A DNA stretch of 64,000 bases from Amphiura filiformis (lineage: Eukaryota; Echinodermata; Ophiuroidea; Amphilepidida; Amphiuridae), in NCBI RefSeq assembly GCF_039555335.1, contig NC_092646.1, positions 23,228,893 to 23,292,892 of the forward strand. The letters run 5' to 3'. Below the pieces are notes generated by a model. That model was not told where the DNA came from and searched no databases. It saw only the letters and a list, made by a program, of their open reading frames with translations. Position 1 is the stretch's first letter. The number at the start of each line of letters is the position of its first letter. Of this stretch, positions 5,101-11,100 are shown piece after piece. The position numbers and the translations under genes were made by a program.

Positions 5101-8100
5101 TGGGTGCTGAAAAAACATTACCCTGGCTTGTCTGGCTCAGGTGATATCTATTTTTGAAGATCACTTACATTTAATTTTGACCTTAAAGAAATATGAGCTA
5201 ATATGAGCAGAATGCATATTTGGTGCATATGGTGTGATATCCCAGTCTTGTGATTACCAATGGAATGTTTTGGAAATTTGCCAGGATTGGCATGGTGAAG
5301 TTGGTTGGCTCGAGATAGGCCTAAGACATTTTGTTATTTATACGTTAAATATTACATTTTTAAACATAATTCTGCATTGATCATGAGTAGGCTGGAATAA
5401 CTTACTGTTTTGGGACATTCAAAAATTTTGGCCCCAATTTTTATTTAATCTTCGTTATTTGGTTGAATTTCAACCTAAAAACCACTCTTATGTATCGATC
5501 AAGTGCTCTAGAGTCTAGAGTATTTATTTTGACATCATCTTTGGCCAAAAATGTCAAAATATTGAATCTTCGTTATTTGGCAGAATTTTGAAAAATATAG
5601 CTTTTTCGGTCAAAAATGTTTTGAATGACTAAAAATGCTATCAAAAGACTCCAGGACATGTGATCAGTGTAGAAAAGTGGTTTTTAGATTGAAATTCAGC
5701 CACATAACAAATGTTTAAAAAAATTGAAATTTTTGGTCCACTTTGTCTATTATATTAGAGGCCTAAAAAATTGTTTGATTGGTGTAACCCGACCTACCCT
5801 AAAATTAGTCCCTAAACTAGACTTTTTCTCTTCTTTTTTTGCAAAAAATAAATAAATAAATTTAAAAAAGGAAATGGAAAATTTAATTTCAAAAAAAGAA
5901 GAAAAAAGATCCAAGGCCTTTATCAAACGCAATTTACTGCTTTAAAACTTGCATTGGTAACTTTTTATCACAGAGAATGTCTTTGAATATATACTAAAAA
6001 AAAATCCCTACTCTCCTACCCTAACTTTATGTTATGCCAATCAAACAATTTTTTTTAGGCCTAAGTGAGCCTTGCTATATTCAGTAGACAGCAATGATGA
6101 AAAATTAAAGTGTATATGCTCCTTGCCTTGTTGTTTCAAATCATCATCATCATCATCATCATCATCATCATCATCATCATCATCATCATCACCATCACCA
6201 TCATCACCATCATCATCACCATCATCATCATCATCACCGTCACCATCATCATCATTATTATCATCATCACCGTCATCATCATCGCCATCATTATCATCAT
6301 CACCATCATTATCATTATCATCATCGTTATCATCACCTGATATTACGATCACCACCATCATAGTCATATTATATGTGATGCGATCAAGCAAGTCGGAACT
6401 CGGAAATATTAAATTTTCAGTTTCTTATAGGAGAATAAAAAGCATTTACAAAGCTGTATTTTGCAGAAAACCCCATTAAAATTGAACAACCAGTTCTAAT
6501 GATATTCATGAGCAATTAAAGAGTTTCTAAAACAACAGGAAACGAGATCTGATTGCGTTCGCCTGCGACCGCGAGGATGCACAGCCAGCAGTGACAAATG
6601 AGTTATGACCCCGAATCTGTGAAAACCGGAAGTGATCCCTTAATTACCTTTGACCCCCCAAAAAATATTACATAGTGCTTAGGATGTCATAAGGAATATT
6701 CCTGGTGAATTTCAGCTTAATCGGAACTTATACATGGATTTTGATTTTTTTTAAATTTATGATTGACCTTTTGACCCCCTTAGTGACCTTTGACCTCAAT
6801 GAAAATAAAACCTTATGTACACCGACAAAATGCATTGTTCTAATTTTATTAAAAAATTCTACTATATTTAGTTGTTGAGATAAAAATTCTTGAAGTTATT
6901 TAGCTAAAAACAGAGAGTGACCCCTTAATGACCTTTGACCCCCAAAATAAAAATACCATGCATACATCAGGTAACACTGATTCATGTATGATGGTTATAT
7001 TACTCTGGTCTGTTTACATTTTGAGATAAAAAATTTTAATTTTTTTTTTGATAATTTTGGTTTTTGACCGGAAGTAACCCCTTAATGACCTTTGACCCCA
7101 AAACTGTAGGCATCCTAAAGACATTGGCTAGTAGCAATGCATGTGTGCTAATGGCGACGCTCTGCTATGTAATTTGTAAAGACAGTGATTTTTTGAATAT
7201 TTGTTACAAATTTTTCAGACTTTTACCGGAAGTTACCCCTTAATGACCTTTGATCCCAATTCTGTGAGGAACTGTTAGACACTGGCTATAGATGATGCAT
7301 GTGTGTAAGTGACGTCACGGTGCTATGTAATATGTGTGAGGAGTAGCATTTTTAGTGAAAATCCAAGTTTTGGCCATTGACCGGAAGTGGATGACATTTG
7401 ACCGGAAGTTGATCATGTGACATTTGTAGCCAGTGCCAGTGATGATTGTGTTTAAGTTTGGTTGAAATCCATGAAAGTATGTGGCTACGATGGCTGATAT
7501 CATAATGTTGACAGAAGAAGAAAGAAGAAAGAAGAAGAAGAAGAAGAAGAACGCGGTAAAAAGAATGCACAGCGCCGATGGCGGCTGTGCAACAAAAGGA
7601 ACTAGACTTAGCTGTGGTCTAAGACCACGAACACAGCCGTGTTGTGGTGACCCCTTAATGACCTTTGACCCCAGAATATATGAAAACGCCCATAGACATT
7701 AGCTAATGTCAATGCATGGGTGCACGTGGCACCACTTTGCTATGTTATTTGTGGCAGAAGGGGCATTTTGAAGGTTTTTCGTCTCAGACCGGAAGTGACC
7801 CCTTAATGACCTTTGACCCAAATAAAAAAATACCACATATGAATTGGGTAACCACAATTCATGTGTGATCATACCGTTACTGTCCTATGTTTTTCTTAGC
7901 AAATACAAATTTTTGAAGGTTTTTCGTTTTATACCGGAAGTGACCCCTTAATGACCTTTGACCCCAAATCTGTGAGGACCCCATAGACACTGGGTAATAA
8001 CAATGCATGTGTGCAAGTGGTGTCACTGTCCTACGTAATTTGTGGGAGAAGAAGCATTTTAAAGATATTTCGTTTTATACCGGAAGTGGCCCTTAATGAC

Positions 8101-11100
8101 CTTTGACCCTAATTAAAAAATACCACATATACACAGGGTAACTACAATTTATGTGTGAACATACCGTTACTGTCCTATGTTTTTCTTAGCAAATACAAAT
8201 TTTGAAGGTTTTTCGTTTTATACCGAAGTGACCCCTTAATGACCTTTGACCCCAAATCTGTGAGGACCCCATAGACACTGGGTAATAACAATTCATGTGT
8301 GCAAGTGGTGTCACTGTCCTCGTAATTTGTGGGAGAAGAAGCATTTTAAAGGTATTTCGTTTTATACGGAAGTGGCCCCTAAATGACCTTTGACCCTAAA
8401 TTAAAAAATACCACATATACACAGGGTAACTACAATTTATGTGTGAACATACCGTTACTGTCCTATGTTTTTCTTAGCAAATAAAAAAATTTGAAGTTTT
8501 TTTGTTTTATACCGGAAGTGACCCCTTAATGACGTTTGACCCCAAATCTGTGAGGACCCCATAGACACTGGATAATAACAAAGCATGTGTGCAAGTGGTG
8601 TCACTGTCCTCACGTAATCTGTGAGAGAAGAAGCATTTTGAGTTGAAATCACGTTTTTGACCCCTATGACCCCTCGTGACCTTTGACCCCACGAGTTTCA
8701 TATGACATGTAGGGCGTGGTCAATAATGGTTGTGACCAAGTTAGGTTAAAATCGGTGTAAGCATGTAAGTGCTAGAGCAAATGAAGTGGTCGGCAGAAGA
8801 AAGAAGAAAGAACCTGTAAGAAAAAAGACACAGCCGTGACTAACGTCACGGCTGTGTAAATATTTCCTTTGTTTGGCTATATCTCAAAATCAATATTTCC
8901 GATTTCCAACTGATTTTGCTTGATCGCATCACATATTGTTTTGTCCTCATTTGAAACAGACATGCATTAACAAATATGTTTTGTTTTTGTACAGTCAATT
9001 TTGCTGAGTAACAAAAATATTTTCATATTGCTTAGGTTGCTTAGGTAATGTGAAAATATTGATAACATAATCCAAACATACAAACATGTGTTGCCATTTT
9101 ACTGAATGGAAAATACTAGTAGCATTACATGTAATAGGGTTGATCAAAGTACAAAGGCACTTGAAATAAGAAGGATATTTTACACTATCTTTACTTTTTC
9201 ACTATCTTTACTAATTAAAAGTTTAGTGACCCCTAATTTTTATTCTGTCTGAGGAATTTTGTGAAAGGCAAAACTGCTAAAAAGGAAACAAAAGGGAAAC
9301 TACCTACCAGCAATATGATGCAAACATGCGGGCAAGCAATGTTGGTGCCAGTTATATTGCATTGTCTCAGTTTGTAAATCCATTGTGATTTTTGCGGGGT
9401 GTGGGTGTTAGCGCACTTTTAGCAATGTGATTTAAGTTAAATTTCTGTTAATGTTATGCGGGTAGGTCTATATATAATTAAAACAAAGATAATAAACAAA
9501 AAAATTCCTTGTTTCCAACATGCCCATGTGATGCTGTGAGAACAGGTGCTTAAAAATTATATATTTGTGATAATTTCCTTGCAAACACTTTTTTGAAATA
9601 TCTGCAAATGCCTTGCCGGTGCAGGGCTTGCCTCTAAAAACCACATTTTGAGGTCCATAATCAGAGTAGGGTGGGGTGCACAGGTTTTTGAAAGTGTGGG
9701 CCATAAGTCTTGATTCCCACTACTGCTCAAACAATTTCTGAAATTTTTGACTAGATATGTCTGGCATCATTGGTAGCCCCATAATTTTCATCCAATTGGG
9801 TACATTTCTGCCGACTAACTGGCAAAAGTAGGGACTGGCCCGACCCCGCCAGTTTGCCTTTTATCACATTTCTTTTCTTTTTTAAAAATGTTTTCAAAGC
9901 TTTTCAAGTTTTCAATTAATTGAAAAAAGTAAGGAACTTGGGCAGGAATTAGTGGCAAAAAATTAAAAGGGCAAAAAATATAATGCAATAAACAATTCAC
10001 AGATTAGCCCTTTGACTTAGATTGGAAAGGCAAATCGATTGATTATGAGGACTTTACACTGGCAAATTGCCATCAGGGAGTAGGTTCATTCACAGTTCAT
10101 AATAATAGTGGGGATTTCCACAATGACATACCATTCTTTCAGTCAACAAACTTTTCACTACTAAATACTGAAAGGTTTAGCGTCCTTTATTTTGTCTGTT
10201 GAACCAGTTTTTTTTCACTTATTTAATATTTTTGTAATCTGGTTTAAGCAGTACATATTAATACATTTTATTTATTGAATAAAAACAAAACTGTTTGCCC
10301 TCTATCAGAATAATCATGTGTACAATTATTAGAAAATATATCAGGTATGTGTGTTTGATGAGAGTACTGTAGGCCTAATGTTCATTGTTGTACCATTATA
10401 TTGAGAACTCAGTATAAAGCTGTATGACATTGCAATGTTGTTTTTCCTCTTTCTGCAATGCCATTTATTAAAGGTGTATATATTGGGAGGGGGATCATAG
10501 TGGAAATGTGGTACAGAAACAAAATTGAAATTGAACATTGGAGCGATGAGTCACCAGCGACAACTGTAAAGTCCATAGAGGGAAATATCAGATTTGGGTT
10601 CCAAGCCTTCTCTCCTACCTGTGCGAGGTTGATGGTGCAATGTGAGGCAATGTGTTGTTCAGATCGGCCAGGGGGTGGCTGTCACAATCCCTACCAGTCA
10701 ACAAAGATTCTGTGACAGCAAGTAAGTCTACATTATGGTCTATGATAAAATCTGAAATTGGGGTGGTCTTGATGTTTAATGAGCCAGCGCAAGGCATATG
10801 ATTTCAGCATGTTCGGGAAAGACTTTCTCATTGGCATGATACAATCTTTCTAAGTTGGCATACTGATACGATGTTTGTCACATAACATACGATGACATGT
10901 GATGGATTTTCTCTGTAAAGTAGCTATCTACTGCTGATATGGGTGTTGATGAAGTAGCTATCTACTGCTGATATGGGTGTTGATGAAGTAGCTATCTACT
11001 GCTGATATGGGTGTTGATGAAGTAGCTATCTACTGCTGATATGGGTGTTGATGAAGTAGCTATCTACTGCTGATATGGGTGTTGATGAAGTAGCTATCTA

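Follow-up and report, generated by a model that had tools for sequence, protein, structure and literature searches.

Does an array of composite transcription-factor sites inside a transposon serve the surrounding host gene, or does it serve the transposon itself? The question is raised by a locus in a 64,000-nucleotide stretch of the genome of the ophiuroid Amphiura filiformis (NC_092646.1, positions 23,228,893 to 23,292,892 of the forward strand; this whole stretch is termed “the window” below, and positions are counted from its first letter). A first-pass annotation had described there a single transposon at 6374–8933 with about a dozen sites combining an ETS motif and a DR1 (a direct repeat of half-sites with one-base spacing), and it offered both an enhancer array and an element-serving motif as explanations. 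We found that the sites belong to a 33-bp box that is clearly and strongly constrained between old lineages of repeat units, where it changed 0.2–0.5 times as fast as the rest of the unit. Among the latest duplicates, the few events available suggest no clear constraint.

Two elements nested inside a third

The locus is not one transposon: two tandem-repeat elements, termed A and B, are nested inside a third. The annotated outer ends were nearly right, as the region is closed by perfectly complementary (100%) 21-nt terminal inverted repeats (TIRs) at 6371–6391 and 8916–8936, with identical 4-bp flanks (ATAT); what lies between them is composite.

6371–8936, no strand assigned: outer short TIR element, like a miniature inverted-repeat transposable element, and host to both insertions; the DNA that belongs to it lies at about 6371–6543, 7593–7602 and 8858–8936
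6544–7594, minus strand: element A, HINE-like, each border placed to within about 3 nt
7601–8859, minus strand: element B, HINE-like, each border placed to within about 3 nt
7593–7602, no strand assigned: CAAAAGGAAC, a scrap of outer-element DNA that separates A from B; with both insertions taken out, it aligns with AAAAGG in the short copy

A BLAST comparison of the outer element with the rest of the window returned a short relative at about 24050–24237, which has the same ends and no array. The interior of this copy (24051–24236) is uninterrupted, and its 4-bp flanks are identical (ATTT). With A and B removed, the outer element aligns to it at 78% over 159 columns, both junctions being spanned. 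Because this remainder and the ten-base scrap both align to the short copy, we conclude that a single short TIR element received two insertions of array-bearing DNA. The only further match from this comparison was a 20-nt AT-rich one at 19300–19319. A third TIR copy is located at about 39973–40230; matching 4-bp flanks are found in two of the three copies (ATAT and ATTT) and not in this one. We considered it as another array carrier and rejected it, as it holds a single DR1-like 12-mer (40165, two mismatches), within chance expectation.

A 33-bp box shared by both arrays

The repeat units of A and B were anchored on their DR1-like sites, of which there are 14, and then aligned.

6625–7425, minus strand: tandem array of A, with six boxes whose anchors are at 6644, 6784, 6929, 7086, 7244 and 7392
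7640–8690, minus strand: tandem array of B, with eight boxes whose anchors are at 7659, 7807, 7952, 8097, 8240, 8384, 8530 and 8677
7933–7965, no strand assigned: an example of the perfect 33-bp box, ACCGGAAGTGACCCCTTAATGACCTTTGACCCC

Array B consists of alternating unit types, X and Y, arranged as dimers of about 290 bp. Its anchors are spaced by 148, 145, 145, 143, 144, 146 and 147 bp (mean 145.4 from 7659 to 8677), in agreement with the annotated period of about 146 bp. Those of array A (6644 to 7392) are spaced by 140, 145, 157, 158 and 148 bp, with 267 bp across the A/B junction. The DR1 12-mer TGACCTTTGACC has 10 exact copies in 6601–8700. Allowing at most two mismatches raises the count to 19 for the window as a whole, of which 15 fall in this element; shuffled sequences gave 5.5 ± 2.4, and none of 100 reached 19. 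Another motif, ACCGGAAGT, occurs in nine exact copies inside the element and once elsewhere in the window. That outside copy (21021, in 20950–21140) is situated between long inverted-repeat-like arms, such as ACTTACTCTCTAATATTTCGTCCTAC and its complement, as read from the sequence.

The count of about a dozen composite sites is too high: both motifs are perfect in four of the 14 units (7086, 7807, 7952 and 8097), each is within one change of perfect in nine, and four units (6784, 6929, 7659 and 8677) have no recognizable ETS site. The claim that the motif pair is better kept than the rest of the unit was borne out. In all pairwise comparisons of the 12 full units (the array-end units 7392 and 8677 were dropped here and from the old-split counts below), identity in the box ACCGGAAGTGACCCCTTAATGACCTTTGACCCC was 1819/2008 (0.906), compared to 4088/7119 (0.574) outside it; the best 33-column window clear of the box reached 0.617. 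Within the box, identity was 0.90 for the ETS site, 0.89 for the first half-site, 0.92 for the TTAA spacer and 0.95 for the DR1. Thus, the conserved object is one 33-bp block, spacer and third half-site included. On the other strand it reads GGGGTCA-A-AGGTCA-TTAAG-GGGTCA-CTTCCGGT: a DR1 and a DR5 (five-base spacing) that share a half-site, beside an ETS core, with three TGACC half-sites in all. The factors that would bind ETS- and DR1-like sites are presumed here from general factor preferences, and we infer binding to the box from its sequence.

Old and recent change in the box

A comparison of rates inside and outside the motifs, which had been proposed with the first-pass annotation, was run within the array, and the box proved slower between old unit lineages. 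X and Y spacers are homologous (z = 4.6–10.1 over 12 pairs). With gap runs counted as events, the X–Y splits show 47/409 changes in the box vs. 469/1411 outside, a ratio of 0.35; the A–B and A–A splits gave 0.47 and 0.49. Counting substitutions only, the three ratios were 0.23, 0.21 and 0.21, respectively. Two independent X–Y pairs gave 7/66 in the box vs. 76/227 outside (Fisher p = 0.00017).

The latest duplicates are two trios, X units 7952, 8240 and 8530 and Y units 7807, 8097 and 8384. Unit 7659, which has a truncated box and is more diverged, was left out of this test. Wherever X units were compared with 8530, which continues into the 5′ module described below, their last 16 nt were trimmed, also in the old-split and spacer comparisons. 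Gaps included, the trios show 7/66 events in the box vs. 21/199 in the rest, a ratio of 1.01 (95% confidence interval (CI) 0.36–2.45; Fisher p = 1.0). Had the old ratio of 0.35 held, at least seven recent box events would be expected with P = 0.0125 (Poisson) or 0.022 (conditional binomial). For two recent pairs the counts are 5/68 vs. 10/225, where one event falls at the edge of the box (Fisher p = 0.35). We speak of “no clear constraint” and not of free decay because the recent ratio rests partly on gaps. Relaxation of constraint at this locus is likely but not established.

A and B look like HINEs

By most of their anatomy, A and B look like non-autonomous rolling-circle elements of the Helentron/HINE (DINE-1/Pearl) kind. 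We compared them to Drosophila DINE-1, mite HINE-Mo, and oyster Cg_HINE and Pearl, as described in the available portions of PMC4067079 and PMC7492417. Three of the features concerned are as follows.

8828–8857, minus strand: 5′ hairpin of B, with a 13-bp stem and 4-nt loop; DNA fold −17 kcal/mol, z = −9.5, none of 200 shuffles as good
7513–7551, minus strand: TTC-rich microsatellite of A, reading AGA on the plus strand, from Tandem Repeats Finder
About 8796–8813: TTC-rich microsatellite of B, shorter and impure, read from the sequence

On the minus strand, A has a subterminal inverted repeat (subTIR), TGCACAGCC, 3 nt from its 5′ end and an inverted copy 34 nt from its 3′ end; in B, the subTIR ACACAGCCGTG lies 2 nt from the 5′ end and its inverted copy 30 nt from the 3′ end. 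The match is 9 nt in A (equalled in 6 of 2000 shuffles) and 11 nt in B (2 of 2000). In both elements the 5′ subTIR is directly followed by its own complement, which forms a hairpin; that of A folds with z = −4.2, and again none of 200 shuffles was as good. A 5′ module is common to A and B (67% over 156 columns). The order in both is thus 5′ subTIR, hairpin, microsatellite with the shared module, tandem array, and 3′ subTIR copy. It is that of oyster Cg_HINE, given in the PMC7492417 excerpt as 5′ subTIR, complementary repeat, microsatellite, tandem repeats, 3′ subTIR and palindrome, and it resembles DINE-1/HINE as outlined in PMC4067079. T runs flank A and B, matching the descriptions in both papers, and the border uncertainty of about 3 nt leaves room for a 2–3-nt duplication. 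A and B would, like HINEs, sit in an oligo-T target with no clear duplication; they lie inside another element, which is frequent in HINEs. All five stop-to-stop open reading frames of at least 70 amino acids that overlap A or B lack a Pfam family above the cut-off, and an Rfam search of 6300–9000 returned no match.

The likeness has its limits. HINE subTIRs are about 11–15 bp long, so the 9-nt match of A falls below the usual length, while the 11 nt of B do not. The ETS + DR1 box is absent from the HINE descriptions in the available text of the two papers; for the oyster monomers, the comparison covered their description in words. As to the spacing of the boxes, the annotated period is indeed near the length of nucleosomal DNA, but this is a weak argument: because spacings of 140–158 bp fall within the 140–180 bp usual for oyster HINE monomers (PMC7492417, in part), the nearness says little. 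Among echinoderms, the Tsp transposons of Strongylocentrotus purpuratus (Cohen et al. 1985) are cited as DINE-1-like elements in the excerpt of PMC4067079.

A proposed explanation for the conserved box

The explanation that we favor, and to which we give an even chance, is that A and B are Helentron/HINE insertions in a TIR transposon, and that the box was kept in multiplying source copies and is now probably passive here. Two non-autonomous elements would have landed in T-rich DNA within a short TIR transposon of the animal genome, each with a central array whose units share the 33-bp box of ETS-like site, TGACC half-site and DR1. Source copies with the box may have multiplied better, which would have kept it. 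Most likely, the box would act in cis, as a site for either a host factor or the element’s own replication proteins; in the former case, a nuclear receptor and an ETS factor would open chromatin in the germ line or early embryo. Between the two options of the first-pass annotation, the rates lean toward the element: old constraint (ratios of 0.21–0.49) combined with a recent ratio of 1.01, or 0.67 for substitutions only, speaks, on few events, for selection on source copies rather than on this insertion.

Several observations weigh against this explanation. Counting substitutions only, the recent trios show 4/66 vs. 18/199 (ratio 0.67, 95% CI 0.16–2.03), a count compatible with the old constraint still acting (P = 0.07 at a ratio of 0.23, 0.19 at 0.35). 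Taken singly, the six recent pairs have ratios of 0.86, 2.13, 0.49, 0.72, 0.73 and 0.78, five of the six thus lying in 0.49–0.86. Identity is higher in the box than outside it among X units (0.951 vs. 0.810, the older unit 7659 included) and Y units (0.937 vs. 0.891). Three of the seven recent box events are single-base gaps, possibly assembly errors. Any factor that binds the box is a prediction from sequence. The 3′ palindrome of HINEs is doubtful in B, where GTGGTCTTAGACCAC is readable by eye and the minimum-energy fold is a different pairing (z = −2.5); none was found in A (fold z = 0.18; 111 of 200 shuffles fold as well). Finally, no autonomous partner was seen in the DNA of this window.

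A broader proposal is more tentative: in the HINE families of this lineage, the 33-bp composite of one ETS site with three half-sites for nuclear receptors (DR1 + DR5) may be a functional component that would draw host germ-line or embryonic receptors and keep source copies accessible, being tandemly multiplied and selected for transposition. If so, as many as about 14 receptor sites would arrive ready-made with each jump and could be used for rewiring, much as with the HSF-1 sites of nematode Helitrons; the motifs would serve the transposon itself, and host rewiring would be a by-product. A family whose box is the element’s cis site would allow one to ask why transposons carry host-factor motifs. 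Given many copies, the contrast of old-lineage with recent-duplicate constraint at one site could separate element from host selection, and it is applicable to any tandem-array transposon.

Alternative explanations

A serious rival, although we hold it to be clearly the less probable, is that the 33 bp are a recombination box. Units would exchange or switch templates there, so that arrays grow and homogenize at the box while spacers diverge or are swapped; no factor is needed. It is serious because both arrays start and stop in or beside a box, because the TTAA spacer is conserved (0.92) as much as the motifs, and because unit 6644 keeps its box although its spacer could not be aligned to any other unit (11 comparisons, z from −0.3 to 2.4). 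The A–A spacer pairs, too, are mostly barely alignable (z at most 3.2 in nine of 10), and oyster HINE monomers, otherwise dissimilar, have two conserved segments according to the excerpt of PMC7492417. Against these points stands the clear homology of the X and Y spacers reported above, which implies that there was no wholesale spacer swapping; moreover, exchange confined to a 33-bp tract is unusual.

A present-day host enhancer array, i.e., an insertion adopted by the surrounding gene with its sites kept by host selection, is less likely still, indeed improbable. The resemblance to motifs preferred by animal factors and the strong conservation of the box would fit it, and the substitutions-only recent ratio is compatible with some present constraint. 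The pooled recent ratio of 1.01 speaks against it, and the ETS site or DR1 has already changed in 10 of the 14 boxes; we see no clear sign of such an enhancer here. Nor is its gene setting confirmed. The first-pass annotation had placed the array in intron 1 of a TNFR-like gene, a claim that found no support: the Cys-rich exon-like candidate at 19891–20055, the best such stretch and the sole one tested, has no Pfam hit up to E = 1 and PDB matches of E = 0.9 or worse, and a regular expression for the TNFR-like cysteine pattern had one unconvincing match in the window, at 280.

Host use of such insertions has precedents. Helitrons of Caenorhabditis carry clusters of heat shock elements (HSF-1 sites) whose binding and gene effects were measured, as reported in the consulted part of PMC6927752; rolling-circle elements can thus spread motif clusters that affect genes. 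A and B would likewise be rolling-circle elements spreading many motifs of host-factor type, but they are known from sequence alone, and their motif is ETS/DR1-like. Similarly, the Drosophila ISX element disperses dosage-compensation sites (excerpt of PMC4384637); both cases have a transposon scattering sites of host-complex type, which are functional in ISX and known from their letters here.

The weakest alternative, a single TIR transposon with the array as its own interior and short copies as deletion derivatives, could draw on the TIRs that flank the whole region and on the frequent origin of short copies from longer ones, but the empty 24051 copy with its continuous interior, its match to the scrap between A and B, and the separate pairs of ends of A and B in the same orientation make it very improbable, and we rejected it.

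Relatives of the box elsewhere

The 16-mer TTAATGACCTTTGACC has one match in each of 18 viral-contig stretches; with 10–16 mismatches to the 33-bp box, these were judged to be chance matches. An exact 19-mer pattern occurred in no stretch of the prokaryote genome contigs. The 12-mer TGACCTTTGACC turned up in 14 papers of the literature searched. In one of them, a sea cucumber transcript study, it is found in two of 82 primer entries, from two different transcripts (PMC7161275, Table 6, seen as an excerpt). By our estimate this is far above chance for random primers; the observation is post hoc and tied to no element, and it hints weakly that boxes of this kind could be widespread among the transcripts of echinoderms. 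When reverse-complemented, a third primer in that table (Unigene1366) reads AATGACCATTGACCTCC, which differs from the motif by one base. The 12-mer in a sea-urchin paper (PMC11239237, likewise an excerpt) is part of a cloning primer at a coding start and was set aside as irrelevant. No link between the box and Helentrons appeared by title in the literature searched, most of which was judged on title alone, and a marine-invertebrate repeat phrase was not found there.

Other features of the window

Both ends of the window hold long minisatellites (10918–11788, 60148–60343, 61162–61261, 62181–62919 and 63599–63797), whose units of 34 bp and 27 bp have TATCTACT in common. A retrotransposon of the type lacking long terminal repeats occupies 48473–51902, with domains for an endonuclease and a reverse transcriptase spread over several frames, and a PHD-like finger that stays below the Pfam cut-off; the reverse transcriptase part is around 49208–51902. 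Together with this part, an exon of COP9 signalosome subunit 5 gives the window a eukaryotic look; the exon is located at 54671–54886 on the minus strand, where the match extends over 45 residues and Pfam assigns the JAB family.

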